A stretch of 64,000 nt of DNA from Sphingopyxis sp. BE259 (GTDB taxonomy: Bacteria; Pseudomonadota; Alphaproteobacteria; Sphingomonadales; Sphingomonadaceae): assembly GCF_031457495.1 (NCBI RefSeq), contig NZ_JAVDWM010000001.1:3088001-3152000 (forward strand). Direction: 5' to 3'. The position numbers and the translations under genes are program-made. How positions within the stretch are numbered: the stretch's first letter is position 1; every line of letters begins with the position of its first letter. Shown piece after piece: positions 12,055 through 15,615 of the stretch. The notes beneath the pieces are model-generated. The model saw only the letters and a list, made by a program, of their open reading frames with translations. It searched no databases and was not told the origin of the DNA.

Positions 12055-12705
12055 CTACCAGCGCAGCAGCGGCGCCAGCAGCACCCGGCCCGCTATCCCC
12101 GACAGCGCGACCGCCAGCCCGTGCCACAGCGCAATATGGATCATGTCGTTTGATGCACAGTGCAGCGCCACGATCGTCGCCCCGGCGGCGCCCGCCGCGA
12201 TGCCGATCACCCATCCGGCGCGGGTCGGCGACGTCGGCGCCCCGGCTTTCAGCCACGCGAACAGTGCCGCGGCGACGCCAAGCCCCGCAAATACGCCCTG
12301 CATCAGGCAATGCAGGCCATTTTCGGGGTGCGCCGCCGCCATCGCCGCATGGCCGTCGTCCATCGCCATCACCAGCGCCGATAACGGCAGGGCGAGCGCC
12401 GCGAGCCCCGCCCAGCGCCAGCCGTTATAATCGCGGCCAACCCCCGGCAATCCCATCCGCAGCGCGCTCCAAGCCGCGGCGACACCCAGGGCGACGATCA
12501 GCCAGAAGGCGAGCAACGGCAGCGGCGGCATCATCGCGCCCTCGGCCAGATCGTGCCGAGGGCCACCGAATAGCAGCAGTAAAGCGGCGCCAGCGAGCCA
12601 TCCACCGGCAACCCATAGCGATCCGCGTGCCACCCGGCGCGGGCGCACCGGTTCCAGCTCTTCGGTCAGGCCGTCGATCAGGCTGTCGATCGATGCTTCG
12701 GTCAT
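12055..12705 (-). CDS. nrsF: NrsF family anti-sigma factor (DUF1109)
   Basis: 216 residues from the ATG at 12705, two bases after the sigF stop. A short cytoplasmic N-terminus (MTEASIDSLIDGLTEELEPV) is followed by six hydrophobic segments. Two Cys, in NGLHCLMQG and VALHCASND, match the paired cysteines of NrsF proteins that sense metal or redox stress and hold SigF at the membrane. A TTG five codons upstream would overlap sigF but is less likely. Last gene of the bufferin operon, so it gives negative feedback. Confidence 0.85.
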   Translation of the reverse strand: MTEASIDSLIDGLTEELEPVRPRRVARGSLWVAGGWLAGAALLLLFGGPRHDLAEGAMMPPLPLLAFWLIVALGVAAAWSALRMGLPGVGRDYNGWRWAGLAALALPLSALVMAMDDGHAAMAAAHPENGLHCLMQGVFAGLGVAAALFAWLKAGAPTSPTRAGWVIGIAAGAAGATIVALHCASNDMIHIALWHGLAVALSGIAGRVLLAPLLRW

Positions 12706-12706
12706 G

Positions 12707-13228
12707 TCATTCGCTTTCAATCAATTGCGCGAGCTTTTTCAGCCCGCGGTGGATATTCACTTTCACCAGCGCCTCGCTCTGCCCGCAAATCTGCGATGCT
12801 TCGGCGATCGAGGCGCCCTCGATCTTGACCAGCGTGATCGCCTGCGCCTGTCCCGCGGGAAGGAACGCCAGCATGCGGTCGAGGCTGAGGCGCGCATGGA
12901 CGACCTCGTCCTCGGCCCCGACCGCCGCGTCGCCCTCGCCCAGTTCGACCTCGTCGCGCTGGCGGCGCAACAGGTCGATCCAGCGATAGCGCGCGATTGC
13001 TGCCAGCCAGGGAAGAAACGGACGGCTGTTATCCCAGGTGGCCAGTTTACGATGCATCGACACCAACGTGTCCTGGACCAGATCGTCGATCTGATGCGGC
13101 GCGATGCGGCGCGCGAAATAGCGCGCCAGCCATCGGCGGCTGTCGTTCAGCAGCGCGCGATAGGCGGCGCGGTCGCCGCGCTGCGATGCCGCCATCAACC
13201 GCGCCAGCGAAGGTTCGTCGATGCTCAT
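12707..13228 (-). CDS. sigF: ECF sigma factor SigF
   Basis: 173 residues. Region 2 shows DDLVQDTLVSMHRKL and PWLAAIARYRWIDLLRR; region 4 ends with AEASQICGQSEALVKVNIHRGLKKL. It begins with ATG inside the end of the doxX gene (four-base overlap) and is followed directly by nrsF. In Caulobacter the orthologous SigF turns on bufferin-type operons on heavy-metal stress. A matching promoter lies before bufA at 15590-15615, so the sigma factor would activate its own operon. Confidence 0.9.
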   Translation of the reverse strand: MSIDEPSLARLMAASQRGDRAAYRALLNDSRRWLARYFARRIAPHQIDDLVQDTLVSMHRKLATWDNSRPFLPWLAAIARYRWIDLLRRQRDEVELGEGDAAVGAEDEVVHARLSLDRMLAFLPAGQAQAITLVKIEGASIAEASQICGQSEALVKVNIHRGLKKLAQLIESE

Positions 13229-13680
13229 CTGCGCCGCAGTCTAGCAATGATTGCATCAAGCGAGAACAGCCCGCCGCCGCGCACGATCAGGATCGCCGCC
13301 AGCGCAGCCCACAGCGAATGGACCGGCCACCAGGCGTCGGGAAACACGAAGATCTGGATCACCAGTGTCATCACCAGCAGTGCGCCCGCCGACAACCGCG
13401 TCGCCAAACCCAGCAGCAGCAGGATCGGAAACAGATGTTCGGCATAGGTGGTCAGCGGCACCGCGATAACGGGGTCGAGCGGCAGACCGGAGAACTCCGA
13501 TGCAAACAGATCATATTGGGCCGGGTCGATCTGCAACAAACCGCCCTCGGCCACCTTGGTGCGGCCCGACCGCCAGAACACTCCGGCCAGCGCGATGCGG
13601 ACCAGCAGCAGCGCCGCCGCTTCGGGAATGCGCCCCGCCGCCAGCGCCACCGCGCGATCATAATATGCAGCGATCTTCAT
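13225..13680 (-). CDS. DoxX family membrane protein of bufferin operon
   Basis: 151 residues with four hydrophobic segments and the family-typical LVRIALAGVFWRSGRTKV near residue 27 and YAEHLFPILLLLGLATRLSAGALLVMTL in the second half. DoxX-like proteins are inner-membrane proteins of unclear chemistry and accompany SigF-controlled bufferin operons. It overlaps sigF by four bases and starts three bases after the bufC stop. Confidence 0.85.
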   Translation of the reverse strand: MKIAAYYDRAVALAAGRIPEAAALLLVRIALAGVFWRSGRTKVAEGGLLQIDPAQYDLFASEFSGLPLDPVIAVPLTTYAEHLFPILLLLGLATRLSAGALLVMTLVIQIFVFPDAWWPVHSLWAALAAILIVRGGGLFSLDAIIARLRRR

Positions 13681-13683
13681 CTC

Positions 13684-14379: not shown

Positions 14380-15238
14380 CGACCGCCTCGTGGGCGAGCA
14401 GCGCGTCGGCCTTGGTCACCTCGGCCATCAGCGTCGCATGGTCCGGAACATCGCTGTCCCATTCGATCAGCACCGGTTTCGGACCGGAGCCGCGCAGGAA
14501 CGCCGTGAGCAGATCCCAGCAGCTGTCACGCACCGCCGACCCATGGTCGTCGATCGCGATCGCGCCGCCCATGTCGTCATCCTTACGGCTATGCCCCGCG
14601 ACATGGACTTCGCCGACCAGCACCGGATCGAAAGCGGCGAGCCATGACGCCGGATCGCGTCCCAGGTTGAACGCCGAAACCTCGACATTGTTGATGTCGA
14701 GCAACAGTCCGCACCCGCTGCGGCGGCACAGTTCATGGAGGAAATCGACCTCGTCCCAGTCGTCCTTGGCATAAGCGAGGTAGCGCGAAGGATTTTCGAT
14801 CAATATCGCGCGGCCCAGCCGGTCCTGCACCCGGCCCACCTCGCGCACAAAATGGTCGAGCGCGGCATGGCTGTATGGGATCGGCAGCAGGTCGGGGAAT
14901 TTGTCGTCGGGGCCGTTGCTCCAGCTCAGATGATCGGACACCATCGCGGGTTCGTATCGCGCACATAGCGCCGCCAAGGCTTCCAACTCGGCGCAATCGA
15001 CCCCGGTCGCCGACCCCAGCGACAGGCCGACCGAATGAAAACTCAGCGGCATATGCGCCGCCATCGCAGTCAGCCAGCGATGGGGAGGCCCGCCTGCGCC
15101 GAAGTAATTTTGGGGATGAACTTCGACCCAGGCGGGCGGGGCACCCCGCTCCGCCGCCGCCAGCACGTCGGCATAATGTTCGGGTTTCAACCCGAAGCCG
15201 GCGCGCTGCGGCAAGTCGCGGAGCGGGCGGGGGGGCAC
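14372..15238 (-). CDS. bufB: BufB, DUF692 multinuclear iron peptide-modifying enzyme
   Basis: 288 residues of the MbnB/DUF692 TIM-barrel family. Metal-ligand stretches are all present: EVHPQNYF near residue 40, SFHSVGLSLG near 67, VSDHLSW near 100, LIENPSRYL near 148, LLDINNV near 180, VGEVHVAGH near 210, DDHG near 229 and LIEWDSD near 256. The family uses two or three iron ions and oxygen to turn cysteines of a precursor peptide into thiooxazole or oxazolone groups. GTG start six bases after the bufA stop; RAGFGLKPEHY is the conserved N-terminus. The ribosome site GAGG is unusually close (3 bases), so coupling with bufA translation is likely. Confidence 0.92.
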   Translation of the reverse strand: MPPRPLRDLPQRAGFGLKPEHYADVLAAAERGAPPAWVEVHPQNYFGAGGPPHRWLTAMAAHMPLSFHSVGLSLGSATGVDCAELEALAALCARYEPAMVSDHLSWSNGPDDKFPDLLPIPYSHAALDHFVREVGRVQDRLGRAILIENPSRYLAYAKDDWDEVDFLHELCRRSGCGLLLDINNVEVSAFNLGRDPASWLAAFDPVLVGEVHVAGHSRKDDDMGGAIAIDDHGSAVRDSCWDLLTAFLRGSGPKPVLIEWDSDVPDHATLMAEVTKADALLAHEAVDA

Positions 15239-15243
15239 TTGCC

Positions 15244-15537
15244 TCAGCTCTTTTTGGCGACCGGCTTGGCATTGCCCTTGTGCGCGGCCAGCGTGCCGCC
15301 CATCTTGACGCAGCTGCCCTTGTCGACATTTTTCCAGGCGTTGCCCTGATAATCGACCGTCGAGGTGCCGGCGCAGCTGGTGCCCGGACCGGCGGCGCAG
15401 TCATTCTTGCCCTTCAGCGACACGCCATAGCATTTTTCCTTGGCGCCATCGGCGGCGACGGCGGGGACAGCCACCGCACCGGCGGCCATGGCGAGGACGG
15501 CGGAGGCGGCGAGCGACAGTTTCAGGTTATTCGACAT
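15244..15537 (-). CDS. bufA: BufA-type bufferin precursor peptide (DUF2282)
   Basis: 97 residues: a signal peptide (residues 1-29, ending AVAVPAVAA) and a core with four Cys: Cys36 (KCYG), Cys47 (NDCAAG), Cys55 (TSCAGT) and Cys76 (GSCVKMGG), the classical DUF2282 pattern. In Caulobacter bufferins, BufB/BufC convert two core cysteines to thiooxazoles and the exported product binds copper. The start at 15537 gives the signal peptide directly. A basic C-terminal tail (AHKGNAKPVAKKS) follows the last Cys. First gene of the operon, behind a SigF promoter. Confidence 0.93.
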   Translation of the reverse strand: MSNNLKLSLAASAVLAMAAGAVAVPAVAADGAKEKCYGVSLKGKNDCAAGPGTSCAGTSTVDYQGNAWKNVDKGSCVKMGGTLAAHKGNAKPVAKKS

Positions 15538-15589
15538 GATGGATACTCCCTTGGAAATGAGTGATGCGGGGGATGGCATCGACAAGGGT

Positions 15590-15615
15590 TTCGCGGGGTC
15601 GCGCGCAAAGGTTAC
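15590..15615 (-). promoter_or_regulatory. SigF-type promoter of the bufferin operon
   Basis: Minus strand reads GTAACC, 16 bases, CGAA. This is an exact match to the SigF consensus I recall from Caulobacter. It gives a leader of about 45 bases to the bufA ATG, with AAGGGAG eight to nine bases before the start. Confidence 0.75.

Follow-up and report, generated by a model that had tools for sequence, protein, structure and literature searches.

How is a regulator made when its genes stand at the far end of the operon that it is thought to control? The question is raised by a locus in a 64,000-nucleotide (nt) stretch of Sphingopyxis sp. BE259 (contig NZ_JAVDWM010000001.1; hereafter the window), where six genes, bufA-bufB-bufC-doxX-sigF-nrsF, occupy positions 12055-15537 of the minus strand. 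They encode a bufferin precursor and its partner proteins, followed by a sigma factor of the extracytoplasmic function (ECF) class and a membrane anti-sigma factor. An earlier note on this DNA had described a SigF promoter, GTAACC-N16-CGAA, before bufA, closing a feedback loop in which the operon encodes its own activator and repressor. The motif is there, as an exact match, but the loop so drawn is incomplete because the regulator genes have a conserved SigF motif of their own inside bufC. Our preferred reading, which sequence comparisons make very probable, is that of a two-promoter Buf1 bufferin operon fused to an ECF16-type regulator pair and belonging to a SigF regulon that deals with copper stress and with redox stress on thiols and methionine. 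Below, L numbers denote loci and G numbers genomes; published systems are described after partial texts of the papers cited.

A SigF motif conserved within bufC

The window holds two exact copies of GTAACC-N16-CGAA (Table 1) where 0.07 are expected, and none of 100 shuffles contained two. Both fit GTAAC-N17-CGAA, the consensus promoter of ECF16 sigma factors (PMC8315932). The copy before bufA recurs in the genus: among 24 same-genus loci with a syntenic bufC, window included, it is exact in 22 and has one mismatch in L054 and L060. Across the BE259 genome (3.67 Mb in one contig, estimated 100% complete, with a single DUF2282 gene) the exact motif occurs 11 times, and the reversed pattern, used as a control, occurs 3 times. 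Five of these 11 fall in the regulon described below; the remaining six are L003, L004, L006, L007, L010 and L012, those of L010 and L012 sitting in or at open frames. The match in L006 (1500-1526), with a spacer like one in G029, precedes a possible start of a small membrane protein and may represent a further regulon member.

We compared the copy inside bufC across 35 full-length NrsF loci besides that of the window, taken from a 40-genome sample of the genus, 69 more from a sample of the family and order, and 80 named BufB loci among the matches listed. Six duplicates, bufC matches below 25 bits and genes ending 60 nt or less from the end of a stretch were dropped before counting; identical bufC sequences occur in L147 and L049, L149 and L064, L150 and L048, and L151 and L059. 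The six best-scoring named BufB loci, L147-L152, are all labelled Sphingopyxis. The exact motif lies in the last 330 nt of 42 of the 52 distinct bufC genes that precede doxX-sigF: within the last 155 nt at 41 of these loci, and at -224 in L131. One further locus, L047, has it with one mismatch. Where bufC precedes doxX without a nearby sigF, the exact motif was found once in 52 (L157), and where bufC does not precede doxX, in none of 30 entries (23 of them same-genus, family and order loci; L213, in two pieces, is counted twice). This makes one exact motif in the 82 entries outside the bufC-doxX-sigF context. The motif is conserved at the level of bases, and its conservation is tied to the position before doxX-sigF. 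The leader of the predicted internal transcript gave no signal of RNA structure (z 0.48).

A motif in a reading frame could be a by-product of the protein, in this case of a conserved Gly-Asn-Leu...Glu motif, or of codon usage, which would leave the operon with a single promoter. The motif is indeed in frame: GTAAC-N17-CGAA occurs within the last 200 nt of 42 bufC genes (the 41 and L157), always in one and the same frame, and motif-bearing sequences conserve Asn-Leu and Glu. Moreover, when synonymous codons were drawn at random for the final 70 positions of bufC, the motif arose in 0.5-2.8% of trials (10,000 for each of 8 loci), so chance could account for it in a single sequence. However, the first motif codon is GGT in 33 of the 42 genes, TGT in 6, CGT in 2 and AGT in 1, that is, Gly, Cys, Arg or Ser with GT kept throughout, and parsimony on one FastTree tree counts six amino-acid changes there. 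Invariance of the motif bases in this set is given by construction, and the informative part is the varying residue: because it changes while the bases stay, the motif bases are kept at the DNA level. Third bases tell a similar story. In 24 same-genus bufC genes, whose mean pairwise third-base identity is 0.55, the third base is invariant in 3 of 165 fourfold- or sixfold-degenerate columns, the motif Gly column included (T in 24/24), and at the other 7 conserved Gly columns the commonest third base reaches at most 18/24. GGT is also a rare way of encoding Gly (247 of 2116 Gly codons in five operon genes of the same-genus loci). On the varying residue, the third-base invariance and the single occurrence in the other bufC contexts, we rejected a protein-driven motif, and we regard the by-product explanation in general as very improbable.

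Relics that retain the motif without a working bufC speak against a by-product as well. In L045 the local buf genes have decayed, yet a C-terminal bufC relic with the exact motif stays before doxX-sigF-nrsF (the genome has a DUF2282 gene elsewhere). In L067 bufBC is divergent, and a bufC relic carries GTAACT-N16-CGAA 90 nt before doxX. In L120, doxX has the motif 88 nt ahead of it, and the 6.8 kb examined there contain no recognized buf gene. Both L045 and L120 keep doxX-sigF-nrsF with no intact bufABC adjoining. If the motif acts as we propose, it would be a promoter for a sigma factor that is maintained within a protein-coding gene although the encoded residue changes, and that can persist after its host gene has decayed; such an internal start signal would let the regulator be made separately from bufABC.

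The motif and NrsF at msrA, egtB and gor

Elsewhere in the BE259 genome the motif stands upstream of msrA, of egtB, which is followed by an egtD-like gene start, and of gor (Table 1). From the 40-genome genus sample we collected the DNA upstream of egtB for 38 more strong matches and that upstream of msrA for 37 more, the BE259 genome itself being outside these counts. The NrsF status of each genome was taken from the search of the genus sample, and G022, with a sub-cut-off match only, was scored as lacking it. The exact motif is present at msrA in 29/31 congeners with NrsF and in 0/6 without, and at egtB in 28/33 and 0/5, respectively. Among the best 30 gor loci, the corresponding figures are 23/26 (BE259 included) and 0/4. 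In the congeners examined, therefore, the motif co-occurs with NrsF at all three genes. Two genomes without NrsF, G036 at msrA and G001 at gor, have kept GTAACC and lost CGAA, and a third (G018; 85% complete, 7% contamination) has the egtB motif with a 15-base spacer. Six genomes have NrsF and no DUF2282 gene (G005, G008, G014, G028, G035 and G039); they carry the motif at egtB in 6/6 cases, at msrA in 6/6 and at gor in 5/5 examined. In other genera, GTAAC-N17-CGAA occurs at most 450 nt upstream of msrA in 9/20 genomes with NrsF and 0/10 without, but these motifs need not all be promoters, as their distances scatter from 6 to 288 nt.

If SigF acts at these sites, one sigma factor would link, within one genus, the copper-buffering peptides with ergothioneine, the recycling of glutathione and the repair of methionine, and such a tie across copper, thiol and methionine genes would offer testable targets for what NrsF senses.

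The internal promoter might instead be real but serve mainly EcfG, or some sigma factor other than SigF, in keeping up basal SigF and NrsF. In Caulobacter the sigF promoter is partly active without SigF, through a second driver (PMC3511200), and in S. granuli TFA egtB and egtD are reported under EcfG control (PMC7083833). Against this, the internal site fits the ECF16 consensus GTAAC-N17-CGAA (PMC8315932) and not the general stress response consensus GGAAC-N16-CGTT (PMC7083833). We think it quite unlikely that another sigma factor is the main user. At egtB and msrA, the upstream stretches examined contain no GGAAC-N15-18-CGTT; the GCAAC variant of the general-stress motif was not searched for.

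Two side observations concern these loci. Upstream of egtB (L002, 1468-1482) lies GTTC-N7-GTTC, also found in 7/8 relatives viewed (not in G009), which resembles the alphaproteobacterial LexA box. In three congeners (L302, L303 and L304) a SigF motif stands just before the start of a gene whose product looks by eye like a cytochrome b561-like membrane protein, which may be linked to a counterpart of the YedY-type target of Caulobacter.

The operon, its products and the proposed circuit

Table 1. Features of the operon, and motif-bearing genes elsewhere in the BE259 genome (aa, amino acids)
Feature	Location	Strand	Description
SigF (ECF16-type) promoter motif of bufA	15590..15615	-	GTAACC-N16-CGAA, 52 nt before bufA ATG
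bufA	15244..15537	-	97 aa Buf1 bufferin precursor; PF10048 (DUF2282) 81.4 bits, cut-off 22.4
bufB	14372..15238	-	288 aa MNIO (DUF692) enzyme, GTG start; PF05114 302.9 bits
bufC	13684..14379	-	231 aa DUF2063 partner; PF09836 48.2 bits, cut-off 27.2
Second SigF motif	13750..13775	-	exact GTAACC-N16-CGAA in bufC reading frame (GGT AAC CTC ... GTC GAA), 69 nt before doxX ATG
doxX	13225..13680	-	151 aa membrane protein of bufferin cluster core; PF07681 59.8 bits, cut-off 23.6
sigF	12707..13228	-	173 aa ECF sigma factor; PF04542 and PF08281 above cut-off
nrsF	12055..12705	-	216 aa membrane anti-sigma factor; Cys133, Cys183; PF06532 134.7 bits, cut-off 26.8
msrA	L011		motif upstream; TIGR00401 141.5 bits, cut-off 108.1
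egtB	L002		motif upstream; TIGR03440 577.6 bits, cut-off 360
egtD-like gene start	L002, after egtB		cut by locus end; TIGR03438 60.4 bits, below cut-off 290.9
gor (glutathione reductase)	L005		motif upstream; TIGR01424 614.5 bits, cut-off 606.05

The earlier note had described six genes on one strand whose gaps or overlaps are shorter than ten bases, and direct reading agrees: from bufA to nrsF the junctions are a gap of 5 bases, an overlap of 8, a gap of 3, an overlap of 4 and a gap of 1. Pfam matches above cut-off bear out the DUF2063 partner, the DoxX protein and the sigma/anti-sigma pair that it had named. The DUF692 enzyme holds up as well, since BufB passes the cut-off of the NCBIfam model MNIO_BufB (NF050167; 324.2 bits against 310), aligns over residues 33-274 with the solved DUF692 protein 3BWW (E 1e-31), and has H68, H103, E148, D181, N184, H212, H216, D230, H232 and E259 invariant in a 13-row alignment. 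The conserved His, Asp and Glu positions are shared with 3BWW, and we take the invariant residues to be the putative metal ligands. The NCBIfam models HvfC and HvfX, of another MNIO type, match the bufC and doxX proteins below cut-off only. A four-Cys DUF2282 precursor, an MNIO BufB, a DUF2063 partner and a DoxX protein together place the operon among Buf1 clusters. A Buf2 bufferin, with a precursor of 6 or 12 Cys, was considered and rejected: BufA has four Cys and scores 34.4 bits with NCBIfam BufA2, whose cut-off is 60. The claim of a SigF-controlled bufferin operon is supported by the family models, by the Caulobacter regulon (PMC3511200) and by a survey of Buf1 clusters (PMC12452194).

BufA has a hydrophobic N-terminus that looks by eye like a signal peptide. 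It had been credited with a Cys spacing of its own (11, 8, 21) and a basic tail; the claim that the spacing is its own proved mistaken. The spacing is found in 28/28 BufA sequences, that of the window included (the set covers the fetched same-genus loci, and same-genus DUF2282 genes outside them were left out); by eye, most of these have a similar basic tail. In three same-genus loci (L044, L046 and L047) bufA occurs in tandem, and the second copy has a lipobox-like LAAC in its leader (by eye), which would make its product a membrane-anchored bufferin. Downstream of nrsF, on the same strand, lie two neighbouring genes with DUF2807 (head GIN domain; window 10471-11184 and 11228-11992), and a gene with a GreA/GreB C-terminal domain (15699-16175, plus strand) diverges from bufA with the upstream region in common.

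The regulator pair has the composition of ECF16 SigF-NrsF systems, with sigma70 regions 2 and 4 (PF04542, PF08281) beside a DUF1109/NrsF membrane protein (PF06532). The two Cys of NrsF are each present in 104/105 aligned NrsF sequences. In the circuit that we propose, where SigF binding, transcription starts, induction, chemistry and copper binding are inferred from relatives and motifs, the membrane protein NrsF would hold SigF in the resting state. A metal or oxidant would act on the two conserved Cys and release SigF; replacing these Cys in the NrsF of Caulobacter raises SigF-dependent expression (PMC3511200). SigF-RNA polymerase would then start both at the bufA promoter, reading the whole operon, and in the 3' end of bufC, reading doxX-sigF-nrsF only. 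The short transcript would supply sigma, anti-sigma and DoxX with no need to read the roughly 2.3 kb that separate sigF from the start of bufA, and the NrsF made along with them would reset the switch. BufA, its central Cys modified by BufB and BufC, would be exported and bind periplasmic copper, the copper binding and thiooxazole chemistry being taken from the family. The same SigF would drive msrA, egtB-egtD (ergothioneine) and gor in the genus.

Several observations weigh against this reading. Out of 52 syntenic loci, 9 lack the bufC motif even with one mismatch allowed, namely L163, five loci of genus g12 (L127, L130, L139, L140 and L143) and three from outside the sphingomonads (L187, L192 and L210); in the one other g12 locus, L131, it occurs at -224 only. 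The relatives compared are not independent, and the Fisher tests on motif against NrsF ignore phylogeny. NrsF scores 48.8 bits with the NCBIfam equivalog AntiSigF_NrsF (NF042994), whose cut-off is 300, and is therefore filed under PF06532, outside the equivalog. In the genus, G019 has NrsF but the exact motif at none of egtB, msrA and gor, and G009 and G038 are without it at egtB; one-mismatch sites at gor occur in two genomes with NrsF and in one without (G003). In other genera, the exact site is absent at egtB from all 19 NrsF-bearing rows (G157 and G211 being weak or partial matches), so this control looks confined to the genus; GTAACG is present in three NrsF-bearing rows, and a one-mismatch site in 1/11 rows without NrsF (G145). 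A study of Sphingopyxis granuli TFA placed egtB and egtD in the general stress regulon of EcfG (PMC7083833), which suggests that SigF may not be their sole driver; both sigma factors may act on them, or the EcfG assignment may be indirect. Finally, the autoregulatory gain may be small, since Caulobacter sigF is weakly autoregulated (PMC3511200).

The signal and the cargo are a separate matter. The operon could serve a metal or oxidant other than copper, such as gold, chromate, cadmium or hypochlorite, with BufA as a decoy or sensor. The SigF of Caulobacter responds to chromate and cadmium (PMC3511200), a Brucella ECF16 factor responds to hypochlorous acid (PMC8315932), the bufferin survey indicates roles beyond copper (PMC12452194), and repair of thiols and methionine features strongly in the regulon described above. 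Set against this, the Caulobacter SigF regulon is copper-induced and its sigF mutant copper-sensitive (PMC8224329), and Buf1 peptides sequester copper via thiooxazoles (PMC12452194). We consider a non-copper role unlikely and retain copper in the two-promoter reading.

More tentatively, and as a possibility to which we give somewhat less than even chances, SigF-NrsF of Sphingopyxis could be at heart a thiol/methionine redox regulator, with bufABC as a removable copper-buffer module. As the regulator promoter would be written into the last bufC codons, bufABC could be gained or lost without silencing doxX-sigF-nrsF. This is favoured by the genomes with NrsF and no DUF2282, which keep the regulon motifs, and by the bufC relics, which keep the promoter motif. 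DoxX may then be a third signalling component, a place left open in the Caulobacter system (PMC3511200), because the internal promoter would make doxX together with sigF-nrsF and because L045 and L120 keep the trio without bufABC. Against a signalling role of DoxX, many sigF-nrsF loci have no adjoining doxX, and the L045 genome has its DUF2282 gene elsewhere.

Known systems and other architectures

The gene set and its control by SigF are already known (PMC3511200, PMC6180224, PMC12452194). In Caulobacter, CC3254-CC3257 (buf1) and CC3253-CC3252 (sigF-nrsF) comprise the same six families with the same promoter sequence; the bufferin genes are SigF-dependent and NrsF has two conserved Cys, and SigF drives the homologous buf operon and, in part, itself (PMC3511200). 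Caulobacter transcribes sigF-nrsF separately, from a dedicated promoter ahead of sigF (PMC3511200), whereas here the pair forms the tail of the buf operon and the candidate promoter lies in bufC, ahead of doxX. The SigF of Caulobacter also targets a YedY/MsrP-type gene and another buf operon (PMC3511200, PMC8224329); the candidates here are msrA, egtBD and gor. The RpoE7-EcfR7 pair of Sinorhizobium meliloti (ECF16) accompanies SMb20530-SMb20527, with DUF692 and DUF2063 genes and a GTAAC...CGAA promoter as here, and RpoE7 drives this homologous cluster, but from divergent units with one promoter each (PMC6180224). Brucella BcrS-AbcS (ECF16) shares the DUF1109 anti-sigma factor with two Cys and the Msr genes in the regulon; in the text available, bufferin genes are not mentioned (PMC8315932).

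Buf1 clusters in general (gig operons; captophorins) have a core of DUF2282, MNIO, DUF2063 and DoxX, and sigma and NrsF genes are reported with them (PMC12452194, PMC13097082). As far as the texts of these two papers were available, neither mentions an internal promoter or an ergothioneine/glutathione regulon, and the word 'promoter' is absent from both main texts. Among the matches listed in the open-access literature, by title and start of abstract, none concerned an internal SigF promoter in a bufferin cluster, and PMC7083833, which concerns EcfG, was the one listed paper to combine an egt term with 'ECF sigma factor'. Relative to the literature consulted in this partial form, the candidate promoter nested in bufC, with its conserved bases, and the proposed msrA-egtBD-gor regulon of the genus appear to be new.

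The loci collected also include two further arrangements of these genes. In one, bufB-bufC is divergent from bufA-doxX-sigF-nrsF (L098, L103-L105, L112, L113, L115, L119, L121, L123-L126, L128, L129 and others), many such loci having SigF motifs on both intervening strands. In the other (L078-L082), sigF-nrsF-bufA-bufB stands beside a divergent doxX and bufA.

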